This document shows, in pieces, positions 21,562 through 63,247 of a stretch of 64,000 bases of DNA. The notes under the pieces are model-generated. The model worked only from the letters and a program-made list of their open reading frames with translations, did no database searches and was not told the origin of the DNA. The position numbers and the translations under genes are program-made. Within the stretch, counting starts at the first letter, position 1, and each line of letters starts with the position of its first letter. Origin of the DNA: Aquiflexum gelatinilyticum (GTDB taxonomy: Bacteria > Bacteroidota > Bacteroidia > Cytophagales > Cyclobacteriaceae); NCBI RefSeq assembly GCF_024741135.1, contig NZ_JANSUY010000004.1:248001-312000 (forward strand), written 5' to 3'.

Positions 21562-21899
21562 AACACTAGTTGGGTAAAATCTTTTCCTACTCGTATGGCT
21601 TTTCGGATACGCCCCGTTTGTTATGGTCTCTGGACTCCATCTTAGATTAAGGTATCGGGGCAGCGGGCAATGTTGGCTTGACAAAGTCCAAAAAACAGAC
21701 TTCCTATTCCTAAAGTAGGAAGTATTCAATAACCAAACAATAGTTATTCTGCTTTTACAGTAAAGTTTTCCTAAAATTCTTTTATAAGATGAATTGAAAA
21801 AAATACATTGATTCTATTCGGGATTTTTTAATCAAAAGCCCTTTTGCATAAAGGCAAAACAAGCCATCGTGGAAAGGAAGATGAATGGAGTCAGATGGT
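21562..21899. other. Intergenic region with a perfect hairpin
   Basis: This is the 338-base gap upstream of the DUF805 gene. ACTTCCTA (21699-21706) pairs with TAGGAAGT (21716-21723) in a perfect 8-bp stem with a 9-base loop. No T-run follows on either side, so it is more likely an operator or mRNA leader hairpin than a terminator. No consensus promoter was found in the rest. Confidence 0.4.
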
Positions 21900-56711: not shown

Positions 56712-59700
56712 TCACTCCTCCTCCTTTATCCCTTCATTTTTCTTTTTTCCTTTAGGTTCCTTTTTCGGCTTTTCAGGTTTTGCCTGCCCAAGACCTAGAC
56801 TTCCTTTGAGGCCACTAAAAGTTGTTTTCCACCAATAATTGAAAATGAATTTTTCTTTATCCCGTTCTTGATAAATCTTCCCATCTATCGGATTTCTGAG
56901 GTATCTTCTTGGGTTGTTTGACCTTACGGCAAATGAATTCAAAACAAAAGTCAGGATCGCATCTCTGCCTTTTGCTTTTTCAAGAGTCCTGTGATTCAAT
57001 AAAATCAGGTGCAAATCCGAGTATAAAAACTCCATCTGACCCACAGCTTTGTCATTATCAGCGACAAATGACCAATCCGCACCTTTTACTGTGCCTCTTT
57101 TGATGGTAACAAAAGCATTGGTTTCTAAAATTGAATTTAATGTCCTCATGTCAAATTCCCCAAGCTGTGCATTGATTCTCATCGGATATGGCTCTTGGAA
57201 AAACAAATGGCCTTGAAGGTTCAATTCAGCCACACCATTTAATTTCGTAGTAGCTAGCAAGAAAGATTCCTCCAAAGGATAGGCATTTTCACCTTTGGAC
57301 AAATGAAATGGATACAAGCCGGCGTTGATGTCTGTAAAATAAAGTTCTCCAGGTACCATTCCCTTTTCAAAAAACTCTGAATACCTGATGGTGGCATTTT
57401 CAATCACAAAAGTATCAAGCCTTAATTCGATATCTGCTTTGCTCATCAACTCCTGTGGCATGGGACGGAAAATACCTTCCTCCCGCGGATATCTTTTATC
57501 CCTAAACATGGTAGCAGCGACATCGGTTATTTTTAGGGATTTGGCAGCCAAAATCTCTTCTTCTAGAAACCTGTTATAATCAGGTTTGTCCAAAACCAAT
57601 AAAGGGACATGGATATTCATGACATCAGTCTGTTTTCCAACTGCCCGTCCATATTGGTACCTACCTACCCTTGGAGAGAAAACCAGGTCATTTATTTTTA
57701 TTTGATTGTTATCAACTGATATCAGTCCTATGTTAAGTTTGTTTAGACTGTCTTTCAACAGGATTTCGTAATTGGGAAGGGAAAATTTGAAGTCTTGTTT
57801 TATCAGGGAGGCTTTATCGAGCTTATCCAGATTTTGTAAATCTATCTTGGTTCCGAATACCTCAAAATTGGCGGCAGCGAATTTTGTGGGTTTTTTCGAA
57901 CCGTCTTTATCAAAAACCGAAAAATTTCCTTCCACTATTTCAAAGTCATCTACCATAAAAAACTCAAACAATCCCTTATTGTCTTCCTTTTGTTGTTTTT
58001 CCTTCTTGGGCATTTTTACTTCATCAAGAAACACTTCCATATCGGGCTTGTATAACCTGAGTTGTTTGAGCCAAAGATCTTTGCTTCCCTGTATTTCTGA
58101 TAGTGATTTTGCTTTAATCAGGATTGTTGGAATATGGCCTGAAAAAACCGGAAATCCCGGAACTCCACCCAAGTCCCTTGGAATCACCCTGAAGTTATTT
58201 ACCAAAATCCCATCATATTTGGTGTCCAGTTCAACTTTCGAAAAAGTCACCTGATGGACACTGTCGTTCAGTGTCAACCAAAATTCATCCAATTCCAATG
58301 TAATTCCGTCAAAAAATCCGGCAATTTCTCCTTTTTGGATGTTTGCTGAATCCAGCAAAAAATCAAACACATTCAGGTTAATTTGGGTATTTATAAGTTC
58401 GCTTTGTGTGCCTTGTTCCTTAAATCCCAAACTGAATTTGGCGTCGATAGTCTCAATGGTATCAATAGCAACATTTCCAATGTTTTTTGGAAGGTTTCTT
58501 TCTTTTCTAACTCTGTTTTTAATGGCTTGATTTTCCTCTTCTTTCCAATCATTGTCAATAAGCAATTCCACCGAAGACCCAAGCAATCCAAGTTTTTGAA
58601 GTCTTAGTGAATTGTCAAAAAGAAAGGCCTCCAAGTCCACTCCTTTGAAAGAAAGTACAGGGATTTTAGCTGTCACTTTGGTTTTATCAGAGAAGTTACT
58701 GCTTGGACTTAACCTCACATTCCTCGTAATGATCTCTTCCCTTGCTGTGTTAAAATTGATCCCATCAGCCTGAATGGTATATTTCCCATTTCCTACGGTG
58801 AAAACATAATTGCTCAAATTCAGATCAAATTCTTCAGAAAAAAAGGAGTTAATTTTGTTAGATACGGTTGACTCATCTATAAAAAAATTCTTGACAGAAA
58901 CCGTTAATTCATCCTCTGAAAAGCTTCTTGTCTTATCAGCGGTATAGTTTTGGTAATTCAATTTTGCTTTTTTGACATTGATCGAGTCCACTTTGATCTC
59001 AGAAAAATAATTTGTCAACAACTCTAAAATTTCTCCTCTCCTTAGCTCATTTCCGTCCCCATCCTGAATTTTTTGTTTGTATCGATAGAGTTTAATGTCA
59101 GGAGAAGGAATCAAAATCTCATTGATCCTCAAAATTCCATCAAAATACGCTTGGGGAATATTCACTCCTTTGGCCATAAATTTTGGAACATAAATATCCA
59201 AAGTCGCACTTTTGCCATATCTATCCAAAGTCTTTTGAATCTGTGTCTGATAAAGTGGCCGGATTGCAAAACCGTCGATTTCGATCAAATATCCTTTGGT
59301 ATCCAAAAAAATCCTGTCTGCTTTGAAGATATGTAGGTTATCAGCAAGTTTGAGGGCATAATCCTCAATTTCAAGCTGTAGGTTTTCTGCCAAAAACACG
59401 CCTTTGGATTCAGCATTTTCAGTCTTTTCGTCCAGTGCAAAATTTTCCAAGACCAGGTTTATTTTTCCAAAAGAAAGACTGTCCTGTCTCAATCTGACCC
59501 TGTTGTCGAGAACGAGAGATCCTTGCCGAATTTCAAATCTTTCTACATAAATCCCGTCAAGGTATTCTTTATAAATCTCATTGAGATCCAATTTTGATTC
59601 ATTCTCTTTTCCGCCTTTTATGTTCCTAAGAAATATTTCCGGTTCGTCTAATATCACTTCTTCCAAATCTACAATGCCAAGATTGTAGACTTTCTTAAGA

Positions 59701-61085
59701 TTGGCATCTGAAATAGCCAAGCTAGATACGCTGATATCCAAATGTGCCTTTTTACCATCAAATTCAAGTCCTTCTTTTGGGTAAAGTTTAAATCCATCAA
59801 TCTCTATCCTGTCATCGAAAGAGGAAAGTCTGACAAAATCTCCCACCAACAGGTGGATGCTGTCATTGAGAGCAAATTCAACCTGATGTAATTCTACAGA
59901 AGCATTGTCAGCGTAAAAAAACTGATCCTGTTTTTTAGAGATATCGGGACCGACATAGAAGTCCTCCATTTTGAAGTCAATCCGGTCTGTCTTTATCATG
60001 TAGGTATCCCTGTCCTCAGCCAATCTCTTACCAAACTTCCCTTCTTCAATCTCTAAATCTTGGATCTGAATAGAAGCCAAAAAACCATCAATCAAAGCGT
60101 ATAAATCAAAGGGTTCCGTACCCCGGTCCTGTTTTAAGACCTCTCGGGTGAAAAGGTTAAATTCAGGATTTTCGATTTTCAATTGCCCCACGGCAACCTC
60201 TGAAGTATAAAAAACCCTATTGATATCCGCATCTTTCAACAGCAGTTCATCGAGATCAAGTTGAAAATAAGTTTTTGTTGTTTTGCTGAAATCAGGAATA
60301 ATTTTGACCTCCTTCGCATTGATGAACTGTTCTAGGGAAGATACATTGACCGTTTTGGCCTGGATAGTATGGATGCTGTCAGCCAACAAAACTTCAAAAT
60401 TATCAAAGCCAAAAGAAAAACCCTTGGCATTGAAAGGTGTGGCCGGTACTCTCTCCTGCAAAAGTTGGATATCCTCCATCAAAAGCCTTGTGTTCTCAGC
60501 TTTGATGGCCTTTTGGGAAATGAAATTTTTTAAAAGTAAGTCTGCCTCGTCTATTTTTAGCCTGTTGATCCTTATTTCCTTGACTTGAGAACTCAAAAAT
60601 GACTTCCTGATTTCCTCCTGAAGTATGGAAATAGGTGACACGGTAGGCTTTGAAACATCGGAAGTATCTTTTTTAACCAACTTAAAATCCACATCAGGAT
60701 TGACCAATTCTATGGTCCCAATGATAAATTCCTTTTTAAAAAAACGGTAATTGAGTCCTGTAATGTCTATTTCAGGAATTGAAATCCGATAATATGGGAT
60801 ATCGTCTAAGTCTTGAAACTGACCTTCGACCGGATTCAACTTCAATCCTTTGAAGGTAATTCCCCTTTGCAAAAACAAAATATGAAACTCCTCAAAGTCA
60901 ATCTCATATTTATTTCCGGAGGCAACGTTGACTTTTTCTTTTAGGAAATTGCGAAGTAAAAGATCAGAACCGAAGTAAAAAACTACCTGAAGTGAAAACA
61001 AAACCAAAAGGGTTATTCCTGCCAAGCGCAAGTACTTTTTTTTCCTTTTTGGAGGCAGAGATTCTTGATTTTGATTTTCTTCCAT
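56712..61085 (-). CDS. Very large AsmA-like inner-membrane/periplasmic protein
   Basis: A 1457-residue protein with one N-terminal membrane helix (LRLAGITLLVLFSLQVVFYF) and a huge periplasmic part. It is made of beta-strand units of about 60-120 residues that repeat phrases such as EVDLDELLLKDADINRVFY, VAVGQLKIENPEFNLF and GIEIDGFKLYPKEG. This is the pattern of AsmA/TamB-like bridge proteins thought to carry lipids between membranes. The C-terminus has a Lys/Pro/Glu-rich tail (KPEKPKKEPKGKKKN). No exact family is recognised; AsmA-likeness is inferred from topology and repeats. Confidence 0.8.
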   Translation of the reverse strand: MEENQNQESLPPKRKKKYLRLAGITLLVLFSLQVVFYFGSDLLLRNFLKEKVNVASGNKYEIDFEEFHILFLQRGITFKGLKLNPVEGQFQDLDDIPYYRISIPEIDITGLNYRFFKKEFIIGTIELVNPDVDFKLVKKDTSDVSKPTVSPISILQEEIRKSFLSSQVKEIRINRLKIDEADLLLKNFISQKAIKAENTRLLMEDIQLLQERVPATPFNAKGFSFGFDNFEVLLADSIHTIQAKTVNVSSLEQFINAKEVKIIPDFSKTTKTYFQLDLDELLLKDADINRVFYTSEVAVGQLKIENPEFNLFTREVLKQDRGTEPFDLYALIDGFLASIQIQDLEIEEGKFGKRLAEDRDTYMIKTDRIDFKMEDFYVGPDISKKQDQFFYADNASVELHQVEFALNDSIHLLVGDFVRLSSFDDRIEIDGFKLYPKEGLEFDGKKAHLDISVSSLAISDANLKKVYNLGIVDLEEVILDEPEIFLRNIKGGKENESKLDLNEIYKEYLDGIYVERFEIRQGSLVLDNRVRLRQDSLSFGKINLVLENFALDEKTENAESKGVFLAENLQLEIEDYALKLADNLHIFKADRIFLDTKGYLIEIDGFAIRPLYQTQIQKTLDRYGKSATLDIYVPKFMAKGVNIPQAYFDGILRINEILIPSPDIKLYRYKQKIQDGDGNELRRGEILELLTNYFSEIKVDSINVKKAKLNYQNYTADKTRSFSEDELTVSVKNFFIDESTVSNKINSFFSEEFDLNLSNYVFTVGNGKYTIQADGINFNTAREEIITRNVRLSPSSNFSDKTKVTAKIPVLSFKGVDLEAFLFDNSLRLQKLGLLGSSVELLIDNDWKEEENQAIKNRVRKERNLPKNIGNVAIDTIETIDAKFSLGFKEQGTQSELINTQINLNVFDFLLDSANIQKGEIAGFFDGITLELDEFWLTLNDSVHQVTFSKVELDTKYDGILVNNFRVIPRDLGGVPGFPVFSGHIPTILIKAKSLSEIQGSKDLWLKQLRLYKPDMEVFLDEVKMPKKEKQQKEDNKGLFEFFMVDDFEIVEGNFSVFDKDGSKKPTKFAAANFEVFGTKIDLQNLDKLDKASLIKQDFKFSLPNYEILLKDSLNKLNIGLISVDNNQIKINDLVFSPRVGRYQYGRAVGKQTDVMNIHVPLLVLDKPDYNRFLEEEILAAKSLKITDVAATMFRDKRYPREEGIFRPMPQELMSKADIELRLDTFVIENATIRYSEFFEKGMVPGELYFTDINAGLYPFHLSKGENAYPLEESFLLATTKLNGVAELNLQGHLFFQEPYPMRINAQLGEFDMRTLNSILETNAFVTIKRGTVKGADWSFVADNDKAVGQMEFLYSDLHLILLNHRTLEKAKGRDAILTFVLNSFAVRSNNPRRYLRNPIDGKIYQERDKEKFIFNYWWKTTFSGLKGSLGLGQAKPEKPKKEPKGKKKNEGIKEEE

Positions 61086-61288: not shown

Positions 61289-61335
61289 CAAAAAAAGAGA
61301 CAATCCGATATTTGCTGACTAATCGCGAGTGTCTC
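61289..61335 (-). terminator. Terminator downstream of tRNA-like RNA 1
   Basis: GAGACA (61297-61302) pairs with TGTCTC (61330-61335), with an inner CGAT/ATCG pairing. On the minus strand seven T follow. It lies 31 bases after the tRNA-like element. Confidence 0.65.
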
Positions 61336-61366
61336 AATAATTAAATAGCCCAAATATAAATGATGC

Positions 61367-61504
61367 TGTAGGAGAAGGATTCGAACCTCCACGGAGAAGT
61401 TAGGCAACAAAAGAGCTCTTTGTGTGCTTTGTCCAATCCTGATAAGAATCAGGTACTCCACCCCCGAGACAGGAGGGCATGTCTGCCAGTTTCAACATCC
61501 TACA
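61367..61504 (-). ncRNA. tRNA-like RNA 1 with oversized variable region (138 nt)
   Basis: Read on the minus strand: acceptor TGTAGGA/TCCTACA (7 perfect pairs), a Leu-like D-arm (GAAACTGGCAGAC), and an anticodon-like arm CCCTC/GGGGG with loop CTGTCTC. In that loop U33 is present, the anticodon would be GUC, and position 37 is U instead of a purine. A 65-75-base variable region follows, with hairpins CCTGAT/ATCAGG and AAAGAG/CTCTTT, then T-arm GGAGG-TTCGAAT-CCTTC. A terminator and an upstream box shared with RNA 2 suggest a transcribed gene. It may be a degenerate tRNA or a tRNA-like regulatory RNA. Confidence 0.6.
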
Positions 61505-61542
61505 AGATGTAATTTTTCAAAGCCCTTTGCTTTGTAGCGGGT

Positions 61543-61550
61543 CAAAATTA
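61543..61550 (-). promoter_or_regulatory. Shared upstream box of tRNA-like RNA 1
   Basis: TAATTTTG on the minus strand, within TGTTAATTTTG, 39 bases from the RNA 5' end. The same 11 bases precede RNA 2 at a similar distance. It fits TAnnTTTG. Confidence 0.55.
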
Positions 61551-61689
61551 ACAAACCGATCCATTTATTAAAATTAATTTAAATAAATATACGTTTTTTT
61601 ATATTTTATTTAAAATTAAATATAAATAATTACCAATTGAACAATCTTGAAGCGATTTATTCGATTTTATTGAAGAATCTTTAACGGCC

Positions 61690-61729
61690 TAAAAATCAAA
61701 AAAGCTGTGAAACAAAATCTCACAGCTTT
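61690..61729 (-). terminator. Terminator downstream of tRNA-like RNA 2
   Basis: AAAGCTGTGA (61701-61710) pairs with TCACAGCTTT (61720-61729). On the minus strand six T follow. It lies 33 bases after RNA 2. Confidence 0.88.
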
Positions 61730-61761
61730 AGTCAATTAACAATAAACCCAAAATAACCAGA

Positions 61762-61817
61762 TGTAGGAGAAGGATTCGAACCTCCGGGGAAATCCCCACC
61801 ACTCTTTCAATCCTACA
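61762..61817 (-). ncRNA. tRNA-like RNA 2, acceptor and T-arm only (56 nt)
   Basis: Read on the minus strand: acceptor TGTAGGA/TCCTACA, a linker TTGAAAGAGTGG, a short hairpin GGGGATTTCCCC in place of the D- and anticodon arms, and the T-arm GGAGG-TTCGAAT-CCTTC. Acceptor and T-arm are identical to those of RNA 1. It is followed by a strong terminator. No anticodon exists, so it cannot decode; it recalls a minimal substrate for RNase P, tRNA-modifying enzymes or EF-Tu. Confidence 0.62.
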
Positions 61818-61851
61818 ATACAACTGGACTTTTTTCCAATTGATTACATGA

Positions 61852-61859
61852 CAAAATTA
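61852..61859 (-). promoter_or_regulatory. Shared upstream box of tRNA-like RNA 2
   Basis: TAATTTTG on the minus strand within TGTTAATTTTG, 35 bases from the RNA 5' end, the same string as before RNA 1. Confidence 0.55.
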
Positions 61860-62200: not shown

Positions 62201-63247
62201 TTACTCTTCATATTTGACATAGTTCTCCCATTTTTCAAGAACAGCCGAAAAATCTGCAGGAAGCGGGGTTTCGAAGTAAATCCTGTTTTTGGTCACGGGA
62301 TGGATAAATCCCAAGGACATCGCATGCAAAGCCTGCCTTGGCATGAGGTCAAAGCAATTTTGGATAAACATTTTGTATTTCGAAAACTGCGTCCCTTTTC
62401 GGATTTTGTCTCCACCATACATGGCATCATTGAATAAAGGGTGACCCAAATATTTCATATGGGCGCGGATTTGATGGGTACGGCCTGTTTCCAGGTTACA
62501 TTGCACCAAGGTCACATAGCGCAGCCTTTTGATCACTTTCCAATGGGTTACCGCATGCTTTCCCTGAGAACCATCAGGAAAAGTGTCCATCACTTTTCGG
62601 TCCTTGGCACTCCTACCCACATTGGCGATGATAGTCCCTTGGTCCTCCTCAGGTTCTCCCCATACCAAAGCCAAGTAGGTCCTGTCTATATCATGGTTAA
62701 AAAACTGCTTGGCAAGATCTGTCATGGTAGTTTCAGATTTTGCAATCACAAGCAATCCGGAAGTGTCTTTATCTATCCGGTGGACCAATCCAGGCCTACC
62801 AGAATTACCAGGCATGGTAGGTAGTTGGTTAAAATGGTAAACCAAAGCATTGACCAAAGTTCCTGTCCAATTGCCATGAGCAGGATGGACGACCATCCCA
62901 GGAGGTTTGTTGATAATCATCAGGTACTCATCTTCGAATACAATGTCCAAAGGAATATCCTCCGGAATGACCTCAGTGTCCCGAGGCGGTTTTTCAAGAA
63001 AAACCTTGATTTCATCCAAAGGCTTAACCTTATAATTTGCCTTGGTTGGATTCCCATTGATCTGAACAAAACCTGCGTCTATTGCATTCTGAACCCTGTT
63101 TCGGGTGGCATTTGACAACCTGTCAGTTAAAAATTTATCTACCCTAGTCGGGGTCTGGCCTTTGTCAATCGTAAAACTAAAGTGCTCAAAGAGTTCTACT
63201 TCCAACTCTTCCTCATCAAAATTATCCTGATCCATCATGTCTGCCAT
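62201..63247 (-). CDS. rluD: RluA-family 23S rRNA pseudouridine synthase (RluD type)
   Basis: Isomerises uridines in helix 69 of 23S rRNA if orthologous to RluD. The 348-residue enzyme has an acidic N-terminal tail, an S4 domain (TRVDKFLTDRLSNATRNRVQNAIDAGFVQINGN), and the catalytic core LVHRIDKDTSGLLVIAKSE with the nucleophilic Asp. The RluA-family ending HQIRAHMKYLGHPLFND and RQALHAMSLGF is present. Starts at 63247, 63238 and 63235 are all in frame (MADMMDQD). It is divergent from the partial ACC-deaminase-family gene. Confidence 0.94.
   Translation of the reverse strand: MADMMDQDNFDEEELEVELFEHFSFTIDKGQTPTRVDKFLTDRLSNATRNRVQNAIDAGFVQINGNPTKANYKVKPLDEIKVFLEKPPRDTEVIPEDIPLDIVFEDEYLMIINKPPGMVVHPAHGNWTGTLVNALVYHFNQLPTMPGNSGRPGLVHRIDKDTSGLLVIAKSETTMTDLAKQFFNHDIDRTYLALVWGEPEEDQGTIIANVGRSAKDRKVMDTFPDGSQGKHAVTHWKVIKRLRYVTLVQCNLETGRTHQIRAHMKYLGHPLFNDAMYGGDKIRKGTQFSKYKMFIQNCFDLMPRQALHAMSLGFIHPVTKNRIYFETPLPADFSAVLEKWENYVKYEE

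Follow-up and report, generated by a model that had tools for sequence, protein, structure and literature searches.

The window analysed here, a stretch of 64,000 nucleotides from Aquiflexum gelatinilyticum (NZ_JANSUY010000004.1), carries two neighbouring tRNA-like RNA genes on its minus strand: RNA 1 (138 nt, 61504-61367) and RNA 2 (56 nt, 61817-61762). Both genes had been proposed in a preliminary description, together with the identity of their acceptor strands and T arms, and the sequence confirms this: the 7-nt acceptor strands TGTAGGA/TCCTACA and the T arm GGAGGTTCGAATCCTTC are the same in the two RNAs. On the minus strand RNA 2 comes first and RNA 1 second, at a spacing of ∼260 nt. The pair is flanked by an RluD-type pseudouridine synthase gene (62201-63247; the RluD domains were checked in the relative of this gene at locus L136, not in the window gene) and, on the other side, by a large gene (56712-61085) that we take to be AsmA-like and whose relative in L136 had no Pfam match.

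RNA 1 can be read as a complete cloverleaf (all positions on the minus strand). Between the acceptor strands (61504-61498 and 61373-61367) lie a D arm, TTG-AAACTGGCAGA-CAT, with a Leu-like loop containing GG and a T-T outermost pair in this copy (61479-61495); an anticodon arm, CCCTC-CTGTCTC-GGGGG, with GUCUC at loop positions 34-38 (61461-61477); an enlarged variable region with a GGAG...CTCC stem and an inner hairpin between GGACAAA and CUAAC (61391-61460); and a T arm, GGAGG-TTCGAAT-CCTTC (61374-61390). G73-C74 is encoded (61365-61366) and the remainder of the CCA end is not. The anticodon-like arm and the extra hairpin region noted earlier are thus both present, but the extra bases are the variable region of a cloverleaf, so the earlier statement that a normal tRNA body is missing holds for RNA 2 only. 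In RNA 2, as had been described, a hairpin (GGGG-ATTT-CCCC, GGGGATTTCCCC, 61786-61797) replaces the D and anticodon arms and leaves an acceptor/T minihelix, followed by encoded T73-C74 (61760-61761), a 28-nt trailer, GGTTATTTTGGGTTTATTGTTAATTGAC (61731-61758), and a terminator found by the terminator scan (61701-61729) with a T run behind it. A leader hairpin, CAATTGGA/TCCAGTTG (61821-61842), was recognized by eye, as were different hairpins at this position in some homologues.

The reported upstream box is indeed common to both genes: TGTTAATTTTG ends 38 nt (RNA 1) and 34 nt (RNA 2) before the acceptor and includes TAATTTTG (61543-61550 for RNA 1 and 61852-61859 for RNA 2), an instance of TAnnTTTG, which we take to be the Bacteroidota -7 promoter consensus. 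This consensus lies upstream of 90 out of 144 bacterial RNA 1 copies (7.7 expected from mononucleotide shuffles). Downstream of RNA 1 we found a diverged trailer with the core TTTGGGCTA (61331-61360) and a terminator-like hairpin, GAGACA...TGTCTC plus a T run (61289-61335), which has a long loop, was identified by eye and is not among the matches of the terminator consensus scan; of the two terminators in the preliminary description, the scan therefore recovers that of RNA 2 only. These promoter and terminator signals suggest that both RNAs are transcribed.

Standard annotation tools did not recognize the pair. ARAGORN made no call for RNA 1 or RNA 2 in the window, nor at 28 loci of relatives; neither RNA reached an Rfam gathering cut-off (RNA 2 scores 16.8 bits to RF00005, with a cut-off of 29), and nine loci likewise gave neither a match at the RF00005 cut-off nor an ARAGORN call. 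The weak Rfam matches of the window RNAs are at chance level. The suggested comparison with tmRNA leads nowhere: RF00023 matches only 11 nt of the T loop (5.8 bits), and the genome has its own tmRNA elsewhere (G000:C17:62118-62524, 123 bits). Folding energy alone is insufficient to tell the RNAs from chance (z is -0.66 for RNA 1, which is unremarkable, and -1.35 for RNA 2); what places them beyond chance is the presence of further copies in the same genome and of structured, covarying relatives elsewhere. A different contig of the own genome carries a tandem of two additional RNA 1 copies (G000:C12:497137-497261 and 497320-497444).

A BLAST search of 59 genomes with RNA 2 found RNA 2 in all five sampled genomes of the window's genus and retrieved many RNA 1 copies through the common 3' end. 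The preliminary description had proposed a covariance-model search of related genomes as a check; such a model of RNA 1 (R1), applied to 395 genomes of the phylum, found structured, covarying homologues in 40 of them at 84-140 bits: nine out of nine genomes of the window's family, five out of six from the rest of the order, 23 out of 83 from the rest of the class and three out of 297 outside the class. The line for RNA 1 was drawn at 80 bits, our own choice; the remaining matches are set apart by a gap, at or below ∼62 bits except for one at 66.8 bits (L297 in genome G048, outside the 40), and the short ones were taken as ordinary tRNAs. RNA 1 was not found in the other 355 genomes under filters strict enough to lose weak matches. 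A pattern scan of named genomes gave at least 118 contig stretches with RNA 1, the taxa among the matches listed including Hymenobacter, Pontibacter, Dyadobacter, Emticicia, Cyclobacterium, Algoriphagus, Belliella and Fulvivirga, as well as Saprospiraceae and Flavobacteriales. One RNA 1 (L246) is in a MAG labelled Thermoanaerobaculia, which belongs to another phylum and may reflect a binning error.

We parsed 93 distinct RNA 1 homologues: 36 from an alignment (A1), 31 more and 26 new ones. A1 holds 36 of 43 sequences, after five near-copies, the longer L023 paralogue and L020, with its degenerate variable arm, were dropped. The 93 span all 63 matches of at least 80 bits (two of which repeat others) plus L297; L351 and L352 were left unparsed, their stretches starting inside the acceptor (loops by eye TCGTCTC and TTGTCTC). 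The searches that retrieved the 93 relied on T-arm and 3'-end similarity or on a model built from such sequences, loop included, and close relatives were entered as separate sequences. Every one is a complete cloverleaf and 92 have an enlarged variable region: a 7-bp acceptor stem, U8 G9, a 3-bp D stem with a Leu-like GG loop, a 5-bp anticodon stem with a 7-nt loop, a variable region of 7-106 nt and a 5-bp T stem, with a TTCGANY T loop and G73 C74 in 93 out of 93. Paired cells number 651 out of 651 in the acceptor, 270 out of 279 in the D stem, 453 out of 465 in the anticodon stem and 462 out of 465 in the T stem, and the pairing of each stem exceeds all of 300 shuffles. In A1, 95.3% of cells are paired and both partners changed in 12 pairs, compared with 88.3% and 8.0 in shuffled alignments; none of 500 shuffles matches either value (a weaker measure, the number of further pair types, is matched by 24 out of 500). 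Sliding the pair partners drops the pairing to 53-61%.

The D stems ATG/CAT, TTG/CAA, GTG/CAC, ACG/CGT and GCG/CGC alternate among the homologues, and seven have TTG/CAT with one mismatch. The anticodon stem has been rebuilt in some lineages (CCGTC/GACGG, CCCGC/GCGGG and CTAGC/GCTAG) while U35, C36 and C38 stayed unchanged; in one lineage a CCTCC/GGTGG stem retains a T-T mismatch. In the typical variable region, a 4-bp stem accompanies an inner stem between GGAUAAA and CUAAC, and both stems covary. The 77-nt relative L297 lacks the variable arm and keeps the loop UAUCUC, so the loop is not there solely to contact that arm. We also observed a common GGGTTGACCAC-type motif in long variable regions (L105, L119, L125, L300 and viral copies), which was not seen in the short GAGCTC-loop variable regions usual in Cyclobacteriaceae. 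Genus g75 (L343-L350, L353-L354) has tandem RNA 1 pairs, one genome combining the acceptors TGTTGGG and TGTAGGA; base 37 is C or G in these copies, a lineage with a looser loop.

The RNA 2-type sequences are 13 in number (five from the window's genus, putative Mariniradius and Aquiflexum, Echinicola, two MAGs and three other genomes), and only the acceptor and T stems are common to all of them, the T loop being altered in several. The middle part, 16-75 nt long, is unrelated between genera, and the shortest form, in one genome, has 47 nt before base 73. Pair counts were taken from a hand table of 13 rows: 90 out of 91 acceptor cells are paired, which none of 2000 shuffles reaches, and both partners have changed at pairs 1, 4, 5 and 6, whereas the T stem varies too little to be informative (162 out of 2000 shuffles reach the observed pairing). 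Such compensatory changes argue against decayed tRNA copies, in line with the preliminary description. In L157 the RNA 2 acceptor differs from the RNA 1 acceptor of the same locus, so the identity of the two acceptors in the window reflects ancestry and is not a requirement.

What follows RNA 2 is also conserved: the invariant trailer and a terminator-like hairpin stand behind 13 out of 13 RNA 2-type sequences. In a search of 39 genomes, the 28-mer trailer was matched 18 times, in eight genomes; every match is identical and stands behind an RNA 1 or an RNA 2. A reversed control pattern gave no match in the 39 genomes. In the tandem RNA 1 pairs of L031, L037, L038 and L040 the trailer stands behind the last copy only. 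Among 146 RNA 1 trailers, 23 have the exact trailer, ten (from other Cytophagales or MAGs) have a related one, TTTGGGTTAATGTTGTTT, and 34 have the core TTTGGGYTW (0.67 expected from mononucleotide shuffles), which leaves 112 without the core. A search of the own genome for targets of an 18-mer of the trailer, with up to two mismatches, gave seven matches against six for the reversed control, and we infer no target; two of the matches are the trailers themselves and a third exact match has, by eye, no tRNA-like part upstream. The 75 nt directly downstream of RNA 1 hardly differ between the genera Dyadobacter (L144 and others) and Persicitalea (L133), a trailer-like, conserved stretch of a different sequence. 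RNase P and RNase Z require little more than an acceptor/T minihelix, and this suggests that RNA 2, a derivative reduced to such a minihelix with the promoter box and the invariant trailer still in place, has been retained as a cleavage signal for the sake of that trailer. The 13 sequences form a natural series of tRNA stripping, with the acceptor pairing and the downstream RNA under selection.

The anticodon loop of RNA 1 is more constrained at some positions than at others. U35, C36, C38, G73 and G2-C71 are invariant (93 out of 93 each); G34 is found in 85 out of 93 (A, C or U in the other eight) and U33 in 74, being missing in 19. Base 37 is a pyrimidine in 89 sequences (U in 81, C in eight) and G in four, all from one genus; a purine at 37 was absent from a first count of 67 sequences. 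The commonest loop is CUGUCUC, with a GUC anticodon. Loop bases 35, 36 and 38 were prescribed by the pattern of the bacterial and viral scans, which also required a pyrimidine at 37. Loop counts from scan matches are therefore not independent, and our statements on the loop use the 93-sequence count; among Hymenobacter copies, for example, A34 or C34 occurs in 11 out of 11, a count from such a loop-constrained scan. By eye, the loop could pair with GAGACA of its own trailer in the window's genus; we rejected this pairing, which is missing from the invariant trailer.

According to PMC9976931, G73, G34, U35, C36 and C38 are strong aspartate determinants, and G1-C72 and G2-C71 are crucial. RNA 1 meets most, not all, of this set: it has U1-A72 in 93 out of 93 and G10 in only 15 out of 93, so the bacterial AspRS elements G1-C72 and G10 are unmatched. 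The full count shows base 37 to be freer than 35, 36 and 38, and the pattern thus fits AspRS better; together with G34 in 26 out of 26 added sequences, this raised our estimate for aspartylation slightly, from a still more guarded value. The preference for U37 (81 out of 93) is unexplained by AspRS. The Leu-like body should not be leucylated, since leucine identity in E. coli requires A73 (PMC9976931). We saw no dedicated AspRS for RNA 1: the own genome has only three genes of the Pfam family tRNA-synt_2, presumably the family of AspRS, AsnRS and LysRS, which led us to reject a dedicated paralogue; the ordinary AspRS would have to charge RNA 1. Class II synthetases may be impeded by a long variable arm. 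The own genome has ordinary tRNA-Asp genes. Among 43 listed rows of its ordinary tRNAs, 39 end in N73-C74 without CCA, three have an encoded CCA and one is irregular; with this ending, RNA 1 and RNA 2 likewise fit CCA addition after processing.

RNA 1 is also found in 32 stretches of viral contigs (pattern scan), 31 of them scoring at least 90 bits. ARAGORN, run on 12 of these loci, found ordinary tRNAs in 11, and at several RNA 1 sits inside a tRNA array: some copies are 4-8 nt from ordinary tRNAs, and in L253 the distances to the two neighbours are 8 and 4 nt. The loop is CUGUCUC in 32 out of 32 (one incomplete), under a scan pattern that fixed most positions. Three loci (L254, L266 and L278) have an ordinary tRNA-Asp besides RNA 1. 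Out of nine viral records tested, five (164-326 kb) encode a terminase of the family searched for, which is missing in four shorter ones (5-62 kb), one of which, L252, has a PHROG terminase. RNA 1 had no match in named phage or plasmid records. The arrays of L253, L254, L273, L274, L276 and L277 hold a second tRNA-like set (19 matches at the six loci) with near-identical Leu-like ends, AGTCAGGTGGCG.. and ACAGGTTCGAATCCTGTCCTGACTAC, and A73, in which differing inserts of ∼40-110 nt replace the anticodon and variable arms; the minus strand of L253 has seven copies, and several are common to related contigs.

At 52 out of 118 bacterial loci (among the matches listed), RNA 1 is accompanied by a divergently oriented Lrp/AsnC-family gene whose start lies 112-245 nt away. 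Neighbouring ORFs were taken from a simple ORF caller and clustered by single linkage; Lrp/AsnC domains were seen in the one regulator, of the 52, that was examined with Pfam. SUF and AMP-ligase genes, which are neighbours at the other regulator loci, were not seen in 28 of the 52, so the pair of RNA 1 and regulator may outlast its surroundings; these loci are at most 8 kb long, and neighbours may be cut off. The adjacency could reflect a functional linkage or old synteny.

Selection has clearly maintained the RNA 1 cloverleaf in several Bacteroidota lineages, and it is present in viral contigs. We consider it very probable that RNA 1 and RNA 2 form one non-decoding, tRNA-like family, whose structure and spread are well supported and whose function is a testable prediction. 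In the explanation that we propose as a whole, to which we give slightly less than an even chance, this is a tRNA-derived noncoding family in which RNA 1 is aspartylated for non-ribosomal use and RNA 2 frees its trailer. Maturation by RNase P, RNase Z and the CCA-adding enzyme, as for tRNAs, is probable for both. The ordinary AspRS would then load matured RNA 1 with aspartate for a role outside the ribosome, a step that we regard as plausible but somewhat doubtful. The main role of RNA 2 would be to direct the cleavage that sets free the 3' trailer and terminator as a small RNA, and in Cyclobacteriaceae the final RNA 1 copy of an array would free its trailer likewise; release of the trailer as an active small RNA is a more tentative suggestion. 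More specific, and rather unlikely as a complete picture, is a non-ribosomal aspartyl carrier RNA that serves an aspartate-dependent reaction or an Lrp/AsnC-linked sensor, with RNA 2 releasing a small RNA.

RNA 1 is unlikely to decode, judging by its loop, and a role as a decoding tRNA whose anticodon loop happens to be unusual seems very improbable: the complete cloverleaf, the GUC anticodon of the commonest loop and the position within viral tRNA arrays would suit such a role, and G37 in four out of 93 means that this sign of non-decoding is not universal, but a pyrimidine at 37 in 89, the loss of U33 in 19, the variable base 34, a variable region of up to 106 nt and the ordinary tRNA-Asp genes in the genome and at three viral loci speak against it. 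Charging with serine by SerRS, instead of aspartate, is a small but real possibility. SerRS is not known to read the anticodon. Its preferred features, G73, G2-C71 and a long variable arm, occur in 93, 93 and 92 of the 93 RNA 1 sequences, respectively. A change from A73 to G73 can switch leucine to serine identity (PMC9976931). Serine would, however, leave the invariant U35, C36 and C38 unexplained, and L297 without a long variable arm, the Leu-like D arm and A72 in place of the bacterial serine C72 do not fit it.

RNA 1 may instead be an uncharged structural or protein-binding RNA, such as a partner, decoy or target of the Lrp/AsnC protein, with its loop read by another factor. The divergent regulator gene at 52 out of 118 listed loci, 28 of them without SUF and AMP-ligase neighbours, points in this direction, as does a loop that is kept independently of the anticodon stem and the variable arm while G34 varies. 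We nevertheless find this reading somewhat unlikely: the linkage could be a matter of old synteny, the neighbours of the window copy are different (the RluD-type and AsmA-like genes), no viral locus is in the regulator neighbour group, and the invariant G73-C74 and the acceptor argue for a tRNA-type use. An origin as relic tRNAs, or as debris left by mobile elements at attachment sites, is extremely improbable. Integration into tRNA genes is common and tandem copies have identical 3' ends, but the covariation of RNA 1 and RNA 2 led us to reject relics, and the promoter boxes, the trailer and the depth across families also oppose this origin; no integrase group was seen among the 30 largest neighbour clusters (by eye, one partial sequence each). 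With the proposed aspartylated, non-decoding RNA, concrete predictions for RNA 1 are aspartylation, a CCA ending and absence from polysomes. If true, an aspartyl carrier RNA loaded by the AspRS of the cell would be common to several Bacteroidota lineages and their phages. A conserved family in these lineages and in viral tRNA arrays points to a hitherto unrecognized non-decoding use of tRNA-type RNA.

We found no description of the RNA 1/RNA 2 family in the open-licence papers searched, and as far as our searches reach it is undescribed. The nearest functional analogue is tRNA-Other of Bacillus cereus, a tRNA-like RNA outside translation that is expressed with 5' and 3' extensions and was proposed to be a tRNA-like element within a larger regulatory RNA (PMC3399842). 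Both are tRNA-like and, for RNA 1 by prediction, non-translational: RNA 1 has the fold asked of a pseudo-tRNA, and bases 33, 34 and 37 suggest that it does not decode. tRNA-Other, however, belongs to another phylum, flanks a pathogenicity island and has a Trp anticodon (PMC3399842), whereas the family here is spread over several Bacteroidota lineages, combines G73 and an aspartate-like loop with an enlarged variable region, and has copies in viral contigs. YrlA, a bacterial noncoding Y RNA, also has a tRNA-like domain but is described as encoded with Rsr/Ro60 in rsr-yrlBA-rtcBA operons (PMC7790460). We rejected a Ro/Y RNA system here: TROVE was found in 27 out of 395 genomes, in four out of 40 with RNA 1 and in none of nine from the window's family, and the window RNAs had no Rfam match at gathering cut-offs.

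Among tRNAs proper, RNA 1 resembles tRNA-Asp in its loop and discriminator and tRNA-Leu in its D arm and variable-arm base, but differs from both in the mostly U37, the inconsistent U33, U1-A72, a variable region of up to 106 nt and the missing ARAGORN call. The allo-tRNAs, selC* tRNA-Cys and tRNA-Sec are non-canonical and have long variable arms like RNA 1, but are described with longer acceptor and anticodon stems (PMC7609411); RNA 1 has an acceptor/T arrangement of 7/5 and a 5-bp anticodon stem. The putative release of the trailer follows the same idea as the E. coli leuZ tRNA transcript, whose 3' external transcribed spacer reportedly acts as an RNA; here both release and pairing of the trailer are putative.

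Two further RNA features were observed. In the own genome (G000:C6:52030-52879, L092), five tRNA-Cys-like copies 195 bp apart lie beside a true tRNA-Cys, and a sixth was recognized by eye; the copies score 38-40 bits to RF00005 and have similar ends and an anticodon arm without the normal 7-nt GCA loop. The window itself has a DUF805 RNA (RF03081) at 21580-21645, with a score of 74 bits.
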